Source: Halobacteriales archaeon YIM A00010
Lineage (GTDB): Archaea > Halobacteriota > Halobacteria > Halobacteriales > Haloarculaceae
Direction: 5' to 3'
Assembly: GCA_025041175.1 (NCBI GenBank)
Contig: JAKCFJ010000002.1
Location: 248,001 to 312,000 of the forward strand
Length of the DNA stretch: 64,000 nucleotides
Shown here piece by piece: positions 4,223 through 54,286 of the stretch. How positions within the stretch are numbered: the stretch's first letter is position 1; each line of letters starts with the position of its first letter. The position numbers were made by a program, and so were the translations under genes. A model generated the notes under the pieces. That model did no database searches. It was not told the DNA's origin and saw only the letters and a program-made list of their open reading frames with translations.

Positions 4223-4320
4223 ATACTGTCGGCCCTGCGGACGGCGTGCGACGGACCATCCAGCTGCTGACCGGCAATTCTACCAGTAGCCGATGTGCAA
4301 TCACCCCGCTCCGACAGTGT
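4223..4320. repeat. Terminal-inverted-repeat element A, copy 1
   Basis: A 98 bp element bounded by ATACTGTCGG and CCGACAGTGT, lying between the SMC-like gene and the S17e-like gene that converges on it. The interior (CCTGCGGACGG ... AATCACCCCGCTCCGA) matches copies at 6765 and 34769. It encodes nothing and has the size and layout of a MITE. Confidence 0.85.
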
Positions 4321-5969: not shown

Positions 5970-6767
5970 ATGGCCACAATTCGCGTCCGGGACTGGACCA
6001 AAGAACGGATTGAGGAGATACGGGACGCGGAGTCCCACTCGTCCCACGACTCGGTGATCAAGACGCTGCTGAAAGACCGGGAGCTGTCCCAGTTCGTCAC
6101 TCCGGAGCCCCGGTCGAACGCGGAGCCAGAACGCGCCGAGAGCGATCGCACGGAGCCGGACGACAAAGCGTTCGAGGACCTCACTGTCCTCGAGGAGCTC
6201 GTCGCCGCTGACAACGGCGTGTTGTTTCTGTGGTGTCCCGGCTGTGGCAACGAGATCGCCCACATCGGGGGTGACAACCCGGTCTCGTGGTCCGTCTTCG
6301 AGATCAAATGCCAGCGCTGTCTCTCTCGGCTCGACCAGCACGCGATCGTCGGCATCGAGATCGGCTACCCCATCGAACGGCGGCTCGTCGAAGAAACGTT
6401 GCGATCCGATCTCAAACGCTGTGTGATCGATTACTGGAAGCGAACGCTCGGCCAGCTCGCACACGGCTCGCTCGGAGACGACGCCGACGCCGACCAGCTC
6501 GTTTGGAAGTTCGGCGACTACCGCCGCGAGTTCGGTTGGGACTGGCCGACGGACGTGCCCGTTGTGGATCTCGAACCCGGACGAACGTATCGTAACGAGG
6601 CGACCGGACGGCTGATCGAGGTGGTCGAACCCACCACAGAGCGGCGGAACGCGCTCGACGATTACCGGATCCGGAAACTGGACGGCGAAGACGCCACCGC
6701 GGAAATCATAGACGCGAACGCGGTGATGGGGCTGATTGTGAGCCGCAAGCTCTACCGAGAGGACTGA
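5970..6767 (+). CDS. Ribbon-helix-helix and zinc-ribbon protein
   Basis: A 265-residue protein. Residues 1-40 (ATIRVRDWTKERIEEIRDAE ... SVIKTLL) have the strand-helix-helix look of ribbon-helix-helix DNA-binding domains. Residues about 90-115 hold two CxxC knuckles (CPGCGNE and CQRC) that should bind zinc. The rest is an unassigned alpha/beta domain ending LYRED. The ATG follows a perfect palindrome by 2 bp. The stop codon TGA (6765-6767) is the first three bases of repeat element copy 2. A sequence-specific regulator is the best guess; the target could include the adjacent shape module. Confidence 0.7.
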   Translation: MATIRVRDWTKERIEEIRDAESHSSHDSVIKTLLKDRELSQFVTPEPRSNAEPERAESDRTEPDDKAFEDLTVLEELVAADNGVLFLWCPGCGNEIAHIGGDNPVSWSVFEIKCQRCLSRLDQHAIVGIEIGYPIERRLVEETLRSDLKRCVIDYWKRTLGQLAHGSLGDDADADQLVWKFGDYRREFGWDWPTDVPVVDLEPGRTYRNEATGRLIEVVEPTTERRNALDDYRIRKLDGEDATAEIIDANAVMGLIVSRKLYRED

Positions 6768-6865
6768 TACTGTCGGCCCTGCGGACGGAGCGGGACGGAC
6801 TATCTCTCTGCTGTCGGGCGATTCACCAGCAGCCGATACGCGATCACCCCGCTCCGACAGTATCA
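6765..6865. repeat. Terminal-inverted-repeat element A, copy 2
   Basis: A 101 bp element with perfect 12 bp ends TGATACTGTCGG and CCGACAGTATCA. It fills the whole gap between two convergent genes, and each outermost triplet is the stop codon of the gene running into it (TGA at 6765-6767 on plus, TGA read from 6865-6863 on minus). The interior includes a CTGCTG ... CAGCAG stem. It is closest to copies at 4223 and 34769. Confidence 0.9.
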
Positions 6866-8224
6866 GTCGTCTACGCCCGATCCTTCGGAAGCGGTCGAAC
6901 CGAGGGACGCGACACCGCTGTCTTCGTCCGGCAACACGAGAGTACACGCGAGCGCGCTGATGCTTCCCACCACGAGACCGGAGCTGAAAAACGGCTGTAC
7001 CGCGGCCGGAACGCTCACGACCGCGACCGGATGCTCGACTGCCAGCCCGAGCGCGATGGAGACGGCGACGATCGTCGTGTTCCGGTGCGTCCATTCGACC
7101 TCTCGTTCGATGATACCGACGCCGCTGGAGAAGATCATCCCGAAGAGGACGAGCGCGCCACCGCCGAGTACGGGTTCGGGCATCGCCGCTGCAAGCGCAC
7201 CGATCTTCGGGACAAATCCGGCGGCGAGCAGTACGAACCCACCGACGCCGACCACGTGGCGACTGGCGACGCCGGTAACGGTAACCACGCCCACGTTCTG
7301 TGAAAAGGAGGTGGTCGGAACGGCACCGAACACGGCTCCAACGGCGCTCATCACGCCGTCCGCGAGCAAGCCACCGCGCAGTTCGTCCTCCGTCGGTTCT
7401 CGGCCCACGACAGCGAGGGTCCCGGATACGTCACCGATCGTTTCCACTCCAGTGACAGCGTAGAGGAACGCGACGACAATGATCGCGCCGGGTTCGAACG
7501 CGAGACCGTACTGCAGGGGATCGGGAACCGCCACCCAACCGGCCCGCGCGACCGGGGAGAAATCCACGACACCCAACGGAACGGCGACGACGTATCCGAC
7601 GAGGATGCCGACGAAAACGCTCCCCAGCCGGAGAATCCCTTCGAAAATCTGGTCCAACGCGAGCGCGAGGAAAAACACGAACGCGGCCAGCCCGAGGTTG
7701 ACGAACGAGCCGTACTGTTGGGCGCTTGGGCCACCAGCAGCGTAGTCCATCCCGACCGGAATGAGCGTCAGTCCGATGAGCATCACCACGATCCCGCCCA
7801 CCAACGGCGGGACGAACCGATCGACGCGGTCGTGCGCGAACCCGAGCCAGATCTCTGCGACCGCTGCGGTGAGACACGCACCAAAGACCGTCGCCAGACC
7901 GAACTGCTCGCCGATTCCGACGAGCGGACCGACGAACACGAAGCTCGCACCCATCACGAGGGGCAGACGCGCCCCAACGGGACCGATGGAATACGCCTGG
8001 ACGATCGTGGCTCCGCCGGCGACGAGAAGAGCCATCCGGACGAGAAATCCCGTCTCTCCCGTCGCAAGACCGATCCCCCCGGCGATGAGCAACGGGGGCG
8101 CAACGTTTCCGAGCAGCATCACGAACACGTGCTGAAAACCGAGCGCCACCACCACCCCGATCGGTGGCTTGTCCTCGATCTCGCAGGCTACACCCGCCTG
8201 TTCGGCTGATCGCTGTCGTTCCAT
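6863..8224 (-). CDS. NCS2 family xanthine/uracil-type permease 1
   Basis: A 453-residue membrane protein of the nucleobase:cation symporter-2 family, with about 12-14 hydrophobic helices. The family signature appears as QNVGVVTVTG, and the N-terminal DKPPIG ... ALGFQHVFVMLLGN region is typical. It imports purines or pyrimidines with H+ or Na+. A paralog at 31051 has the same architecture. Context with amidohydrolases, a Mo hydroxylase and XdhC favours xanthine or urate. The start at ATG 8224 is preferred over GTG 8239 because it fits the upstream TATA. The stop codon is provided by the right end of repeat copy 2. Confidence 0.92.
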   Translation of the reverse strand: MERQRSAEQAGVACEIEDKPPIGVVVALGFQHVFVMLLGNVAPPLLIAGGIGLATGETGFLVRMALLVAGGATIVQAYSIGPVGARLPLVMGASFVFVGPLVGIGEQFGLATVFGACLTAAVAEIWLGFAHDRVDRFVPPLVGGIVVMLIGLTLIPVGMDYAAGGPSAQQYGSFVNLGLAAFVFFLALALDQIFEGILRLGSVFVGILVGYVVAVPLGVVDFSPVARAGWVAVPDPLQYGLAFEPGAIIVVAFLYAVTGVETIGDVSGTLAVVGREPTEDELRGGLLADGVMSAVGAVFGAVPTTSFSQNVGVVTVTGVASRHVVGVGGFVLLAAGFVPKIGALAAAMPEPVLGGGALVLFGMIFSSGVGIIEREVEWTHRNTTIVAVSIALGLAVEHPVAVVSVPAAVQPFFSSGLVVGSISALACTLVLPDEDSGVASLGSTASEGSGVDD

Positions 8225-8256
8225 GATCTCACAATCCACTGTTAGTATAGTACATA

Positions 8257-15242: not shown

Positions 15243-15352
15243 ATAGGGACTGTTGTGAGTATTTTCGGCACGGTCGTTGACTGACGACTGCTCAGGGGGT
15301 TCATGAACCGTTCTGTTTCGCCACAGCGGGACGGAATCACAACAGTCCCTAT
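15243..15352. repeat. Terminal-inverted-repeat element B, copy 1
   Basis: A 110 bp element with 16 bp perfect ends ATAGGGACTGTTGTGA and its complement. The interior is strongly conserved, in inverse orientation, with the copy at 32515 (for example CGGCACGGTCGTTGACTGAC). It is located between selD and the tusA-like gene. Confidence 0.88.
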
Positions 15353-18568: not shown

Positions 18569-18670
18569 TATACTGTCGGACAGAGATGATCGAATATCAG
18601 CTGCTGGTGACCGCCAGACAGCAGCTGGATATTCCGTCTCATTCCGTACGTGACTCTGTCCGACAGTATA
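18569..18670. repeat. Terminal-inverted-repeat element A, copy 3 (hairpin form)
   Basis: A 102 bp element with 17 bp perfect ends TATACTGTCGGACAGAG and complement. It also has an inner stem (GAATATC-AGCTGC against GCAGCT-GGATATTC), so nearly the whole element can fold. It separates convergent genes and is followed by a T run. Confidence 0.88.
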
Positions 18671-32514: not shown

Positions 32515-32621
32515 ATAGGGTCTGTTGTGATTCCGTCCCGCTGTGGCGACACAGAACGGTTCGTAAAACCCCAGAGCAGTCGTCAGTCAACGACCGTGCC
32601 GAAAATATTCACAACAGTCCC
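32515..32621. repeat. Terminal-inverted-repeat element B, copy 2
   Basis: A 107 bp element with ends ATAGGGTCTGTTGTGA and TCACAACAGTCCC. Its reverse complement aligns along its length with copy 1 at 15243. It ends 33 bp before the next gene start. Confidence 0.87.
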
Positions 32622-32654
32622 GATCAGCGCGCGAGGCGGACGAGGAAGTAGGCT

Positions 32655-34768: not shown

Positions 34769-34863
34769 TACTGTCGGACCTGCGGACGGCGTGCGATGGA
34801 CGAGCCAGTTGCTGTCTGACGGGTCACCAGCAGCCGAGACGCGATCACCCCTTCCGACAGTAT
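34769..34863. repeat. Terminal-inverted-repeat element A, copy 4
   Basis: A 95 bp element, TACTGTCGG to CCGACAGTA(T). The interior CCTGCGGACGGCGTGCGA ... CACCAGCAGCCGA matches copies 1 and 2. Confidence 0.83.
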
Positions 34864-39204: not shown

Positions 39205-39312
39205 TGATACTGTCGGCCATGGTCCGTCGAACACTCGGTTACCCGTTCACCACGCGTCCCATCGCCGCGACACAGACCACCGTAGGCTCCACGTAATTAT
39301 GACCGACAGTAT
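39205..39312. repeat. Terminal-inverted-repeat element A, copy 5
   Basis: A 108 bp element, TGATACTGTCGG to GACCGACAGTAT. The interior (CATGGTCCGTCGA ... CGCGACACAGACCACCGTAG) matches copies at 41600 (reversed) and 45432. It lies 79 bp upstream of the NhaC-type gene. Confidence 0.88.
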
Positions 39313-39380
39313 GTAACGATAGCATCTACCGGTACCCCAGTATGATATGCATTACGTAACGGGAGACGTTGATAGGGGGA

Positions 39381-40346
39381 TCAGAACGGGAGTTCCGTTC
39401 CGACCTCGGCCCCAACGGTCTCGGTGAAGAGGTGTTCAGCAGCCGCCGCATCGAGCACGGCACTCCCCACGCTCTCAACGACGTGAGTACCCGTGGGTGG
39501 CTCGTCCTCATCGGAGAGCAATACCCCCAGCGGCACGAGATCTGCTTCATCGAGGTCGGTCGCACGGAGGTCGCCGGTCTTTGCGACTTCGCTCGGCACG
39601 TCGGCGTACACCGTGCTTGCAGACTCGATCACAGGGGCCTCGATCTCCTGCATTTCGCGCGTGTAAGCGCCGATAGCGACGACAACCGCGTCGTCCCGAA
39701 GGGCCTCGGCCGCGAACACCGGTTTTCGGCTCGTTGTCGCCGTCACGACGACGGAGGCACCCTCGACGGCTGCATCCGGCCCGTCCACGGCCGTCGTATC
39801 GAAGCCGTCGCTGCGGAGGGCTCGTGCACAGTCGTTTTTCGAGTCACTGGGGGAGTAGATTCGGACCGACGCCACGTCGATGGCTGCTCCGATCGCCCGG
39901 GTCTGCCAGCGCGCTTGGGCACCAGCCCCCAGAACGCCGAGGGTGACTGGGCCCTCTTTCATCGCTCGGACGGCCACGCCACCGATACAGCCGGTGCGTG
40001 CGTTCGTCACGGTGGTACCGTCCATGAACGCGACGGGACGACCAGTGTCGGTCTCAGTGAGCACAATCTGTGCGTGTACCGTTGGCAGGCCCCGCTCGGC
40101 GTTGCCCTCGTGGACGCCAACGATCTTGGTGGCAAAATGCGGGCTACCGTGGATGTACGCCGGCATCACGAGGCTGGTTCCGAGCGGCTCCTCGGATTCG
40201 AGCCCGGTTCCGACGGGATACTCGGGGCGGTCCGGACGCTCGACCTCGCCGCGGGCCTGTTTGACCAGTCCACGCTCGACCTCGTCTAACAGCGCTTCCA
40301 GATCGAGGACAGCCGCGATGTCGGTTTCGGAGAGCACGCGTATCAT
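39381..40346 (-). CDS. Ornithine cyclodeaminase / mu-crystallin family protein
   Basis: A 321-residue Rossmann dehydrogenase-like enzyme. NAD binding is in TLGVLGAGAQARWQTRAIG; the substrate side includes MPAYIHGSPHFATKIVGVHE and DGTTVTNARTGCIGGVAV. Members act as ornithine cyclodeaminases, alanine or ketimine dehydrogenases. It is divergent from an FAD-dependent amine oxidoreductase (111 bp), which suggests the pair handles a secondary amine or cyclic imino acid. Confidence 0.88.
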   Translation of the reverse strand: MIRVLSETDIAAVLDLEALLDEVERGLVKQARGEVERPDRPEYPVGTGLESEEPLGTSLVMPAYIHGSPHFATKIVGVHEGNAERGLPTVHAQIVLTETDTGRPVAFMDGTTVTNARTGCIGGVAVRAMKEGPVTLGVLGAGAQARWQTRAIGAAIDVASVRIYSPSDSKNDCARALRSDGFDTTAVDGPDAAVEGASVVVTATTSRKPVFAAEALRDDAVVVAIGAYTREMQEIEAPVIESASTVYADVPSEVAKTGDLRATDLDEADLVPLGVLLSDEDEPPTGTHVVESVGSAVLDAAAAEHLFTETVGAEVGTELPF

Positions 40347-40456
40347 GGCTTGCAGCCGTACCTTCGGGGGAACGGGTGTTTAATTCCCGGTTCCTGGCCC
40401 CGGAGATCGCCTCCTCAGCCGGTAGACTATTTAAACCGCGGCGACAACCACGTGGC

Positions 40457-41602
40457 ATGAGAACGATCGTTGTTGGTGGGGGTATCATCGGCCTGGCGAG
40501 CGCGTATTACCTCGCTGAGCGGGGGGTGGATGTCACCGTACTGGAAAAAGGTGCCCTCGGAAACGCGAGCACCGGCCGCTCTGCGGGCGGTATTCGCAAG
40601 CAGTTCTCGACCCCGGTCAACGTCGAACTATCGAAAATCAGCTGTCGGGTGTGGGACCGCTTCGAGGAGGAGTTTGGCGTCGACATCGCCCGCCGCCAGG
40701 TTGGCTACCTCCTTCTCGCTCGTGAGGAAACCACCGCTGGCGAGTTCGAGGCGAACGTCGCCATGCAGAACGATCTCGGCGTTCCCAGCGAGTACCTCAC
40801 TCCCGAAGAGGCGTCCGAGTACTGTCCGGAACTCGTGACCGAGCGCTTCGCCGGGGCGGCGTACCTCGAAACGGACGGCTTCGCTGATCCGAACCTCGCT
40901 GTCCAGGGCTACGCCAACGCCGCCACTGCGGCCGGCGTGGACGTTCGAACCAACGTCGCAGTCACGGACGTTCACACCCGAAACGAGCGCGTGACCGGTG
41001 TGGAGACCGGCGACGGATCCATCGAGGCGGAGTACGTGGTAAACGCCACGGGAGCGTGGCTGTGTCGCGTTGGGGCGATGGCTGGGGTGGATATCCCGGT
41101 TGTGCCGCGGCGACGCCAACTCGCCGTCGTCGAGCCCGAGGTGCCAGTGCCGGAGACGGTCCCGCTGACGATCGACCTCGACACGGGATCGTACTTCCGG
41201 CCGGAACGGGAGGGGGCTGCGCTCGTTGGGGGACAGTTCGGTGACGATCCGGCCGTCGATCCCGATGCCTACCGGGGCTCCTACGACACGGAGTGGGCGA
41301 TCACCGCCTTGGAACACGCCCAAGAGTACGTGAGCTACTTCGGTCCGGATTCGCGCATCCGGAACGGGTGGGCAGGGCTCTACGCGGTCACGCCCGATCA
41401 TCACCCGATCGTCGAGGAAGCGATCCCGGGATTCGTCGTCGCCGGTGGATTTTCCGGTCACGGCTTCCAACACGCCCCGGCCACGGGACGACTCGTTGCC
41501 GAACTCGTGATCGACGGCTCGCCGTCACTCGTCGACGGGGATCGGCTAGCCAGCGACCGGTTCGAAACGGACCACACCCCCCTCGAACGGAATGTGGCCT
41601 GA
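40457..41602 (+). CDS. DadA/sarcosine oxidase-like FAD oxidoreductase
   Basis: A 381-residue flavoprotein of the glycine/D-amino-acid oxidase family. The dinucleotide motif VVGGGIIGLASAYYLAERG starts the protein, with NASTGRSAGGIRKQF next and the C-terminal FAD contact GFVVAGGFSGHGFQHAPATG. It oxidises a D-amino acid or N-methyl or cyclic amine. ATG 40457 is chosen because the motif normally begins within a few residues of the start. The stop codon TGA (41600-41602) is the first triplet of element A copy 6. Confidence 0.9.
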   Translation: MRTIVVGGGIIGLASAYYLAERGVDVTVLEKGALGNASTGRSAGGIRKQFSTPVNVELSKISCRVWDRFEEEFGVDIARRQVGYLLLAREETTAGEFEANVAMQNDLGVPSEYLTPEEASEYCPELVTERFAGAAYLETDGFADPNLAVQGYANAATAAGVDVRTNVAVTDVHTRNERVTGVETGDGSIEAEYVVNATGAWLCRVGAMAGVDIPVVPRRRQLAVVEPEVPVPETVPLTIDLDTGSYFRPEREGAALVGGQFGDDPAVDPDAYRGSYDTEWAITALEHAQEYVSYFGPDSRIRNGWAGLYAVTPDHHPIVEEAIPGFVVAGGFSGHGFQHAPATGRLVAELVIDGSPSLVDGDRLASDRFETDHTPLERNVA

Positions 41603-41699
41603 TACTGTCGGTCTAATATGTGAAATCTACGGTGGTCTGTGTCGTGGAGAGCGTGGTGAACGGGCAACTGCGTGGTCGACGGACCATGACCGACAGTAT
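41600..41699. repeat. Terminal-inverted-repeat element A, copy 6
   Basis: A 100 bp element, TGATACTGTCGGTC to GACCGACAGTAT, in inverse orientation to copies 5 and 7, which it matches along most of its length. The leading TGA is the stop of the preceding gene. Confidence 0.9.
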
Positions 41700-45151: not shown

Positions 45152-45534
45152 ACTATTCTGGGTGTATTTGTGGAACCGTAATAATACTTTGGTTATACAT
45201 AAAAGTATTTATGTAATGTAGGATGGATTGCTTGCCCACTAGTGGTTGGGACCGTTCGGACGCAAGGGACACGCCGCTCGCGGCGTTCCGAGGCGTCAGT
45301 CCGGTCGGGCGGAACGATAGGCGCTTCGTCACGGCAATCGCGTCGTGATCGCAATCGGTCCAGCAGAAATCACGATGTGCTACGTGTCATACGTGATCGT
45401 TTCGGTCGCGGGTGCGCTGTCGACGCTCCTCATACTGTCGGTCATGGTCCGTCGACCACGCAGTTGCCCGTCTACCACGCGTCCCATCGCCGCGACACAG
45501 ACCACCGTAGATTTCACATATTAGATCGACAGTA
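45152..45534. other. Intergenic region with AT-rich promoter and repeat element
   Basis: A 383 bp spacer. About 45160-45230 is AT-rich with TATA-like sequence for the TAXI receptor gene. Element A copy 7 occupies 45432-45535. No gene is recognised between. Confidence 0.5.
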
Positions 45535-45535
45535 T
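45432..45535. repeat. Terminal-inverted-repeat element A, copy 7
   Basis: A 104 bp element, ATACTGTCGGTC to GATCGACAGTAT. The interior is nearly identical to copy 5. The last base is also the last base of the SDR gene stop codon on the opposite strand (TAA, 45537-45535). Confidence 0.88.
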
Positions 45536-46323
45536 TATAGGTTTGCCCCGGTGGAACCTCCATCGACCGGGATCGCTGCTCCGTTGACGTATCCCGCTAC
45601 CGGCGACGAGAGGAACGCGACGGTGTTGCCCAGTTCCATCGGGTCCCCGATGCGATCGAGCGGATTGCTCGCCCAGTCGTCCATTCCCGCTTCGTAGGAG
45701 TCGTACTCTCCTCGCTCGACCGCTTGGTCGACGAGTTCCTGAATGCGGGACGTTTCGTGGGAGCCGGGTAACACGGCGTTCGAACGGATCTCGGGAGCGA
45801 ACTCCTTGGAGAGTGTTTTTTCCAGCCCGACGACACCCATTCGAACCGAATTCGACAGCACGAGGCTGTCGATGGCTTCCTTGACGCTTCGGGAGGTGAT
45901 GGTGACGATGGTCCCTCCGCCATCCGCACGGAGATGGGGCTCCGCCTCGCGCGCGAGGCGAACGACGCTCATCACGAGGAGCTCGTAGGCGTCCTGCCAG
46001 TCCTCGTCGTCGGTTTCGAGGAACGCTCCCGACGGCGGTCCGCCGGCGCTCGTTACGAGGTGGTCGAGCCGCCCGAACTCGTCGACCGTTCCCTCGACGA
46101 GCGCGGTGACGTCGTCGCTGTCGGTGATGTCCCCCGCGATCGAACGAACCTCACCGGTTGCGACGTTCTCGATCTCCTCGGTCGCCGCCCGTAGCTGTTC
46201 TTCTGACCGGCCGTTGATGACGACGTTCGCACCCTCACGCGCGAGCGCCGTTGCTGAGGCCTTGCCGAGTCCGCTTGAGGACGCCGTTACCAACGCAACG
46301 TTTCCATCGATCTGTAGGTCCAT
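45535..46323 (-). CDS. SDR family oxidoreductase
   Basis: A 262-residue classical-type short-chain dehydrogenase. The cofactor loop is VTASSSGLGKASATALAREG, NAG-equivalent VTSAGGPPSG, then the active-site region IVTITSRSVKEAI. The catalytic tyrosine expected after the serine is not obvious (SVRMGVVGLEKTL places a lysine but methionine or valine near the tyrosine position), so activity needs caution. The tail DGGSTGANL is typical. The start is ATG 46323. It probably oxidises or reduces a sugar acid or hydroxy acid in the adjoining pathway. Confidence 0.85.
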   Translation of the reverse strand: MDLQIDGNVALVTASSSGLGKASATALAREGANVVINGRSEEQLRAATEEIENVATGEVRSIAGDITDSDDVTALVEGTVDEFGRLDHLVTSAGGPPSGAFLETDDEDWQDAYELLVMSVVRLAREAEPHLRADGGGTIVTITSRSVKEAIDSLVLSNSVRMGVVGLEKTLSKEFAPEIRSNAVLPGSHETSRIQELVDQAVERGEYDSYEAGMDDWASNPLDRIGDPMELGNTVAFLSSPVAGYVNGAAIPVDGGSTGANL

Positions 46324-46481: not shown

Positions 46482-47588
46482 ATGGAGATCGCACACGTAG
46501 AATCATATCCGATACACATCCCGCTGGAGTCTCCGGTGTCGTTTTCGAACCGGACGATCACGTACCGCGACCACGCGATCACGTACGTTCGAACCGAGAG
46601 CGGACTCGAAGGGGTCGGTTACTCGTTGGGTTATGAGGGGGCCGGACTGATTTCCCAAGCGGTCGAATCGCTGCTCGAACCGATGCTTGTCGGCGAGGAT
46701 CCCAGAGACACCGAGCGCCTCTGGCACGAAATGTATGATGGAACGCTCCAGATCGGGCGAGCCGGGATCGTGCTCCGGGCGATCTCGACGGTCGACATCG
46801 CGCTCTGGGATGTAAAGGCCAAAGCAGCGGACCAGCCGCTGTCCAAGCTCCTCGGTGGCTACGCCGACGCGGTTCCCGCCTACGCGAGCGGTGGCTACTA
46901 CCGCGACGACAAGGACCGCGAGGGGCTTCGGGGTGAGATGCGCCGCTATCTCGCGGAGGGTCACGACGTCGTGAAAATGAAGGTCGGTCGTCGTTCGGTC
47001 GCCGAGGAGGTCGACCGCGTTGCGGCCGTCCGCGACGAAATCGGTGACGACCGGACGCTGTTGCTCGACGCCAACGGCGTCTGGTCGTCACCGACTGAAG
47101 CCATCCGAGCGTGTCGATCCTTCGAACCGTACGGCCCCTACTTCATCGAGGAGCCGGTGATGATAGACGAGGTTGAGACGATGGCGACCGTCAACGACGC
47201 ACTCGAGTACCCCGTCGCCACGGGCGAGCTGGAGGGGACGCGCCACAACTTCGCGCGGCTCCACGACGAGGGCGCAGCGAGCGTCCTCCAGCCCGACGCG
47301 ACGGTGTGTGGTGGCATCACCGAGTGGCTCCGCATCGCCAACTACGCGGCGGCGTACGACATCCCCATCGCGCCCCACTACAACTGGAACCTCCACGCGT
47401 CGCTGCTCGGTGCCATCGAGAACGGACTCTGGATCGAGTACTTCTACCGCGACATGGACGTGAAGGTGTTCGACGACGTGGTGGCCGATCCGCTCGAACC
47501 GGACGACGGGACGATATCGCTCCCGGATACGCCGGGACACGGCGTCTCGCTCGATAAACCCGCGCTTCAGGAGTTCAAACAGACATGA
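46482..47588 (+). CDS. Enolase-superfamily enzyme 1 (mandelate racemase/muconate lactonizing type)
   Basis: A 368-residue enzyme with the complete active site of the MR/MLE group. The KxK motif is K165-M-K167, metal ligands are D196 (LLLDANG), E223 (YFIEEPV) and E249 (ATGELEG), and the opposite base is H299 (IAPHYNW). These enzymes abstract an alpha-proton from a carboxylate and racemise or dehydrate it. The start at 46482 (MEIAHVESYPIHIP) gives standard length. It overlaps the second enolase-superfamily gene by 4 bp, so both are made together. Confidence 0.9.
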   Translation: MEIAHVESYPIHIPLESPVSFSNRTITYRDHAITYVRTESGLEGVGYSLGYEGAGLISQAVESLLEPMLVGEDPRDTERLWHEMYDGTLQIGRAGIVLRAISTVDIALWDVKAKAADQPLSKLLGGYADAVPAYASGGYYRDDKDREGLRGEMRRYLAEGHDVVKMKVGRRSVAEEVDRVAAVRDEIGDDRTLLLDANGVWSSPTEAIRACRSFEPYGPYFIEEPVMIDEVETMATVNDALEYPVATGELEGTRHNFARLHDEGAASVLQPDATVCGGITEWLRIANYAAAYDIPIAPHYNWNLHASLLGAIENGLWIEYFYRDMDVKVFDDVVADPLEPDDGTISLPDTPGHGVSLDKPALQEFKQT

Positions 47589-48799
47589 GGGACTTTTCGA
47601 ACCAGATAACGAACCGCGATCCCGAGCGCGACGTACGGATCACCGACATCAAAACGTGTGTCGTCGAGGGGAACTTCGAGTGGAACCTCATCGAGGTCGA
47701 AACCGACGCCGGCGTCACCGGCATCGGTGAGGCGTACCGAGGTGGTGGGGTTCCCGAGCTGGTCGAGTACACGAAACGGTTTCTCATCGGCGAGAATCCG
47801 CTCGATGTCGAACGCATCGTCCGGTACATCGTTCAGGAAATGTCCGGCCACGGCGGCACCACCGGCAAAGTCGTGACGGCAGCCTCCGGCATCGAGATCG
47901 CTCTGTGGGACGCCGCCGGGAAGATTCTCGGGATGCCGGTGTACCAGCTGCTCGGCTCGAAGTACCGCGATGAGGTTCGTCTCTACTGTGATTGTCACGC
48001 TGGCGAGGCCTACGCGGTCGAGGACGGGTCGACGGCTTACGCCGAGGCGGAGGCGTACTCGCCCGAGGCCTACGCCGCGGAGGCGGCGCGCGTCGCCGAC
48101 ATGGGGTTTACCGCGCTGAAATTCGATCTCGACCTGCCGGCGGACAACGATCCCGACCCGTACAACGGCCGGCTCACGAACGCGGCCATCGAGGAAAAGC
48201 GCGAGATCGTTGCGGCCGTCCGCGAGGAGATCGGCTACGACATCGATCTCGCGTTCGACTGCCACTGGGACTACTCCGTCGAGAGCGCGAAGCGACTGGC
48301 CCACGAACTAGCGGAGTATAAACTGCTGTGGCTTGAGGATCTCGTCCCACCGGAGAACACGGACGCCCAGATCGAGGTGACACAGGCGACGCGGACGCCC
48401 GTCGCCACCGGGGAGAACCGGTTTCGGGTCTTCGAACTCACCGACCTCATCTACGAACACGGGGTCGACATCGTCACACCGGATCCGACAACCGTCGGCG
48501 GTCTCGCGGAAACGATGCGCATCGCAGACCGCGCGGAGGAGAACTACATCCCGATGTCGCCCCACAACGTCTGTAGCCCCGTTGGGACGATGGCCTGTGT
48601 CCACCTCGGCGCGGCGGTGCCGAACTTCGATCTGTTGGAGTACCACGCGCTCGACGTTGCGTGGTGGAACGATCTGACGAGCCGAGCCGAGCCGTTGATT
48701 CAGGACGGCTGCATCGAGGTGCCCGAGGCTCCCGGTCTGGGGATCGAACTGGACGAGGCGGTCGTCGAGGAGCATCGCCTCGAAGGAACCGGGGTTTGA
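47585..48799 (+). CDS. Enolase-superfamily enzyme 2 (sugar acid dehydratase type)
   Basis: A 404-residue MR/MLE enzyme. Active-site segments are ALKFDLD (lysine of the KxD form), AFDCHWDY (metal Asp and general-acid His), LWLEDLVPPEN, ATGENRF and MSPHNVCSPVG. The DxH arrangement resembles galactonate or gluconate dehydratases, so loss of water from an aldonate is the best guess. It overlaps gene 1 by ATGA. The stop codon TGA (48797-48799) is the first triplet of element A copy 8. Confidence 0.9.
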   Translation: MRDFSNQITNRDPERDVRITDIKTCVVEGNFEWNLIEVETDAGVTGIGEAYRGGGVPELVEYTKRFLIGENPLDVERIVRYIVQEMSGHGGTTGKVVTAASGIEIALWDAAGKILGMPVYQLLGSKYRDEVRLYCDCHAGEAYAVEDGSTAYAEAEAYSPEAYAAEAARVADMGFTALKFDLDLPADNDPDPYNGRLTNAAIEEKREIVAAVREEIGYDIDLAFDCHWDYSVESAKRLAHELAEYKLLWLEDLVPPENTDAQIEVTQATRTPVATGENRFRVFELTDLIYEHGVDIVTPDPTTVGGLAETMRIADRAEENYIPMSPHNVCSPVGTMACVHLGAAVPNFDLLEYHALDVAWWNDLTSRAEPLIQDGCIEVPEAPGLGIELDEAVVEEHRLEGTGV

Positions 48800-48908
48800 T
48801 ACTGTCGGTCATCGGTCTGTGACCACTCGATCGCCGGTGCAGCCAGCAGCGCGCTCCACGATCACGAAGCGCCCACTGCCGGTGTACGTGAGTATGACCG
48901 ACAGTATG
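48797..48908. repeat. Terminal-inverted-repeat element A, copy 8
   Basis: A 112 bp element, TGATACTGTCGGTCAT to ATGACCGACAGTAT. The interior (GCAGCCAGCAGCGCGCTCCA) matches the reverse complement of copy 10 at 54178. It supplies the stop codon of the preceding gene. Confidence 0.9.
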
Positions 48909-54070: not shown

Positions 54071-54180
54071 ACACTGTCGGTCATACGTGCGTGACTGTAC
54101 GGTGGCATTGTCGGGCGCATGGGGCACTGGCCTGACTGTACAGGTCAGCGAGCGTGCAACGATCCATGACCGACAGTATA
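54071..54180. repeat. Terminal-inverted-repeat element A, copy 9
   Basis: A 110 bp element, ACACTGTCGGTCAT to ATGACCGACAGTATA, with an interior unlike the other copies but itself dyad-rich (CCTGACTGTACAGGTCAG). It abuts copy 10. Confidence 0.83.
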
Positions 54181-54286
54181 CTGTCGGTCATAGTTACGTA
54201 CACCGTCAGTGGACGCTTCGGGAGCATGGAGCGCGCTGCTGGCTGAACCGGCGACCGAGTGTTCTCAGATCGATGACCGACAGTAT
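54178..54286. repeat. Terminal-inverted-repeat element A, copy 10
   Basis: A 109 bp element that shares the TA of copy 9's end (GACCGACAGTATACTGTCGG across the junction). Its reverse complement matches copy 8 at 48797. Confidence 0.85.

Follow-up and report, generated by a model that had tools for sequence, protein, structure and literature searches.

The closest described counterparts of the elements analyzed here are small, non-coding mobile repeats. SMR-A of Haloquadratum walsbyi is about 110 bp long, has prominent terminal inverted repeats, is present in tens of copies and does not code for protein (PMC3119063). Its mobilization has been called enigmatic, and it is reported to make no target duplication and to insert in the near-terminal palindromes of IS605/PATE elements (PMC3119063). 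A review of prokaryotic MITEs describes them as AT-rich and as inserting into AT-rich intergenic DNA, with stop codons going unmentioned (PMC10969869). Our literature search for the sequence of the present element, or for elements that target stop codons, returned nothing relevant, an absence that is weak evidence.

Here, we examined a 64,000-nucleotide window of the genome of Halobacteriales archaeon YIM A00010 (contig JAKCFJ010000002.1, positions 248,001 to 312,000). An inverted-repeat element of 94-107 bp, with TACTGTCGG...CCGACAGTA as its ends, occurs there ten times; we call it family A. Four of the ten adjoin gene stops, accounting for five gene ends in total, as the initial annotation had counted. 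That annotation had also let the element begin with TGA, and this was wrong: the TGA lies outside, as one half of a 3-bp duplication, TCA is about as frequent in its place, and the edge was off by three bases. At 6765-6865, where both convergent genes had been described as terminating exactly in the element ends, we find the same. The gene at 5970-6767 (+) closes with the TGA at 6765-6767, which is the outer triplet of the 95-bp copy at 6768-6862, and the nucleobase permease-like gene at 6863-8239 (-) closes with the TGA at 6863-6865 (-), at its native C-terminus (DD-stop), so that the copy has TGA/TCA flanks. The copies at 41603-41698 and 48800-48906 both carry a TGA/TGA duplication, whose left TGA (41600-41602 and 48797-48799) is the native stop of the gene at 40457-41602 (+) and 47585-48799 (+), respectively; the upstream TGA adjoins each element as had been noted, but it is not the element's first triplet, the elements starting at 41603 and 48800. 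Similarly, a stop does stand at the end of the copy at 45433-45534, but it adjoins the last base, 45534, and does not overlap it. The flanks of this copy are TCA/TTA, the right TTA being the TAA stop of the gene at 45535-46323 (-), and would fit a native TGA stop that was later changed to TAA.

The other six family A copies lie at 4224-4319 (intergenic, TGA/TGA flanks), 18571-18668 (TA-type flanks, GTA/TAA), 34769-34862 (TCG/TCA), 39208-39311 (TGA/TGT), 54072-54178 and 54179-54285. The last two stand back to back, the first directly adjoining the second, with TA-type flanks instead of TSA (TGA or TCA). TA-type flanks recur in about 26 of 153 candidate pairs of ends, so TSA does not capture the whole target rule. 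We also observed that two inverted copies, matching at 22 of 24 end bases and both with TGA as the outer triplet, bracket a two-gene segment at 39208-41698 in a composite-like arrangement.

Across 2.0 Mb of the same genome, we found 111 copies of family A. An identical outer TSA triplet stands on both sides of 62 of them (37 TCA/TCA and 25 TGA/TGA), and the match between the two flanks never reaches 4 bp (0/111). Thus, the elements carry a 3-bp target-site duplication, backed by paralogous empty sites, and TGA and TCA are a single target read on opposite strands. The empty sites come from a second family, family B (TAGGGACTGTTGTG...CACAACAGTCCCTA, 108 bp, 22 copies across the 2.8 Mb analyzed), which itself has a TSA duplication as in family A and is often found on TGA stops; the window has copies at 15244-15351 (TAGGGACTGTTG ends, TGA/TGA duplication) and 32516-32623 (TCA/TCA duplication). 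One internal TGA of family B is a recurrent target for several subfamilies of family A (9/24 copies in 2.0 Mb). Uninterrupted copies read GACTGACGAC at this position, a paralogous empty site of the form GAC-TGA-CGAC, and when the site is hit the family A element lies between two TGAs. Besides these insertions of family A inside family B, nested insertions give evidence of movement, such as the one at C1:128306-128510, a 107-bp copy that contains a 95-bp copy plus 3 bp. Family C, the third group, has TAMGGGTTGTTG ends and likewise duplicates TSA; it is represented by one copy at C1:1352657-1352764 and one at C2:129221-129329, each of which sits on a TGA stop.

For the three genes examined, with homologues in many genomes, element-free homologues stop at the same codon, and so the element did not supply the stop. 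The gene at 40457-41602 ends in the conserved C-terminus ERNVA, as its element-free homologues do; the terminal region of the gene at 47585-48799 is the same in homologues that are 86% identical; and DD-stop also ends the element-free homologues of the permease gene at 6863-8239. Judged by these comparisons, the TGA is the host gene's own stop and predates the element. That stops adjoin the element could also be read as truncation, with elements creating new stops in longer genes. We give this almost no credence: when the element and one triplet are removed, the TGA is still the in-frame stop, and the shared end point of homologues in many genomes contradicts it for all three genes.

The copy at 6768-6862 differs from the rest in being the sole candidate pair, out of 153, with stops at both ends, and its flanks are mismatched (TGA/TCA), as they are in six other pairs. 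GAC-TGA closes the gene on either side, and for the permease this end is native. For this copy only, the arrangement would be explained if two stop-inserted copies had recombined or if the duplication had undergone a single base change; the pre-event gene order was not found in relatives, and we consider such an event about as likely as not.

The initial annotation had proposed a genome-wide tally of element ends against stop codons, and had judged the copies fused to stops too many for random insertion. We ran the tally on 2.8 of the 5.97 Mb, 2.0 Mb first and then 0.8 Mb held out, and the share of insertions on stops was well above the random expectation. Genes were called with a home-made 5th-order periodic model on sequence from which every element, together with one of the two duplicated triplets, had been excised, and duplicate insertions were removed by flank similarity. 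In the first 2.0 Mb, 53 distinct family A insertions comprised 19 on TGA stops, 31 intergenic and 3 in called genes. With every non-coding TSA site taken as equally tolerant, the 19 of 50 non-coding insertions (38%) compare with 8.7% expected (p=1.5e-8). A share of about 35-40% for family A was predicted before the 0.8 Mb was examined, and 9 of 21 were observed there on stops, compared with 6.3% expected (p=2.4e-6). The 60% predicted for family B was not reached in the held-out DNA (2/5), and its share is therefore best taken as about half; by the overall count, 10 of 21 insertions of this family, whose sequence is unrelated to that of family A, are on stops versus 8.2% expected. In other haloarchaea, 22 of 60 insertions are on stops versus 10.4% expected, among 80 loci from the matches listed, a few genomes dominating. 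A final combined scheme, which detects elements slightly differently from the first tally, counts 71 distinct family A insertions outside CDS in 2.8 Mb and places 31 of them on TGA stops, against 8.2% expected (p=1e-15), along with the same 10/21 for family B, 2/2 for family C and 25/62 for other haloarchaea (among the loci listed). Overall, distinct insertions outside coding DNA are on stops in 40-48% of cases for families A and B, and the observed frequency of elements exactly on TGA stops is about fivefold the expectation.

The suggestion that the element may target TGA-containing 3' ends is supported in that TSA is the target and that stops are hit more often than other sites. In this genome, the hit rate per 1000 TSA sites rises from 0.08 in CDS to 2.5 in intergenic DNA, 6.1 at sites no more than 60 nt from a stop and 28 at the stop itself. 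The per-site rate at TGA stops is 11-fold that at other intergenic TSA sites on this crude count, and about 5-fold once context and GC are adjusted for (odds ratio 5.2 [3.3-8.1]). Stop and intergenic hits follow common base rules: C (or G) is favored before TSA, and T directly after it is almost never used (0/50 in this genome). With a position-weight model, up to 17-22% of hits are expected on stops, still below the 37-38% observed. Sites near the 3' end (within 60 nt of a stop) exceed intergenic sites 2.8-fold after adjustment, and stops exceed these near-3' sites with an adjusted odds ratio of 1.9 [1.15-3.1]. Local hairpins at target sites gave no signal relative to GC-matched sites. We rejected the explanation that intergenic targets are stops of missed genes, as only a few look so. 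Collectively, the target motif, its context and the survival of insertions at 3' ends would account for most of the excess, and the modest leftover (~1.9-fold over near-3' sites) could reflect true targeting or an imperfect model.

True targeting would mean a safe-site strategy in which stops attract the mobilizing enzyme, or a partner of it, beyond what the local DNA sequence dictates. The context-adjusted odds ratios over near-3' and intergenic sites both speak for this, as does the stop excess seen in families A, B and C despite their unrelated sequences, and, relative to background, a preceding GAN matters less for hits at stops than for those elsewhere. However, the enrichment of near-3' sites is what survival would give, the base rules at -1 and +1 are unchanged at stops, and the context model, built from few sites, may under-correct. 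We therefore think dedicated targeting unlikely, though worth keeping in view, and are just as doubtful of its broader form, in which sequence-unrelated haloarchaeal miniature elements share a mobilizer that homes to TGA stops and use the duplicated stop as a safe harbor. Far less probable still is the idea, raised in the initial annotation, of a selected stop-plus-terminator module, kept because translation and transcription both end there. The elements do sit at 3' ends, and they fold better than mononucleotide shuffles (mean z -3.3), as expected of any inverted-repeat element. Nevertheless, the stop pre-exists in element-free homologues, the elements point either way at random with respect to the gene (12:10 and 6:5), and intergenic regions between convergent genes show no enrichment relative to the rest. 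Nor does the stem lead into the T-run of an intrinsic terminator: a run of five occurs in 1 of 111 copies (four or fewer in 110) and in none of 28 stop-inserted cases.

Our data are best explained by MITE- or SMR-like non-autonomous elements that have a TSA target and often insert at TGA stops, a reading that we consider probable. A transposase acting in trans, supplied from elsewhere, would move these inverted-repeat elements, and insertion at TSA (TGA or its complement TCA) would duplicate those three bases. Where the target is a TGA stop, one copy of the duplication would stay in place as the stop and leave the gene unharmed. The excess at stops would arise mainly because the TGA stop is itself the target. 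In GC-rich haloarchaeal genes, this stop would also tend to follow a GC-rich flank and one of the favored bases, C or G. Insertions that land in coding DNA or in upstream (promoter) regions would in addition presumably be lost.

We did not find an autonomous partner with matching ends by searching for long-range paired ends in the 2.8 Mb and the 80 foreign loci listed; every pair recovered consisted of miniature copies or half copies. No transposase gene in the sequence analyzed here matched the ends TACTGTCGG and TAGGGACTG. Genome-wide, there are 38 DDE_Tnp_1 matches, most of them on contigs beyond the analyzed 2.8 Mb, the majority of DDE transposases being on contigs C3-C7. A 1.6-kb IS in the sampled chromosome was rejected as a partner, its ends being different (GGCCTTGTTGAA). 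In a relative (genome G132, C29:39600-40633), a pair of TACTGTCGG ends spans 1.03 kb and is flanked on either side by TGA, possibly marking an autonomous element; this segment had no DDE_Tnp_1 or DDE_3 match. Strict copies number 117 in the present genome and zero in six genomes of the same genus, and the same class of element with the same duplication occurs in Natronomonas, Halobellus, Halococcus, Halomarina and MAGs, with species-specific lengths in other haloarchaea of 79, 98, 107, 108 and 109 bp. An Rfam search with the element gave 0 matches, and viral contigs contained no match to it.

Mobile elements need sites that are harmless to the host, and a duplication that reproduces a stop codon lets an element occupy gene ends at no protein cost. 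The old question of target choice versus survival becomes directly testable with such elements. For annotation, the stop is part of the gene and the element starts one base after it.

IS5-family elements make 3-bp TNA duplications, a type with which the TSA duplication agrees, while the ends of the present elements matched no transposase gene here. Like prokaryotic MITEs, the elements are short (79-109 bp as a rule, too short for a transposase), have terminal inverted repeats of 9 to at least 15 bp, duplicate their target, are multicopy, lie mostly outside genes and are nested in one another. They have the features of a MITE, although no autonomous partner sharing their ends was found in the 2.8 Mb or the foreign loci listed. 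The likeness to SMR-A, compared by description, extends to a length of ~110 bp, inverted terminal repeats shared with no known transposon within the analyzed sequence, tens of copies, no coding capacity and a strong preference for certain sites within other mobile repeats. SMR-A was reported without a target duplication, and for this reason we do not file the elements here as its members. One site that family A hits repeatedly lies within family B, a repeat that is not a PATE, since it has terminal inverted repeats. Unlike SMR-A, with its IS605/PATE palindromes as target, the present elements have a 3-bp TSA duplication and are frequently located at TGA stops.
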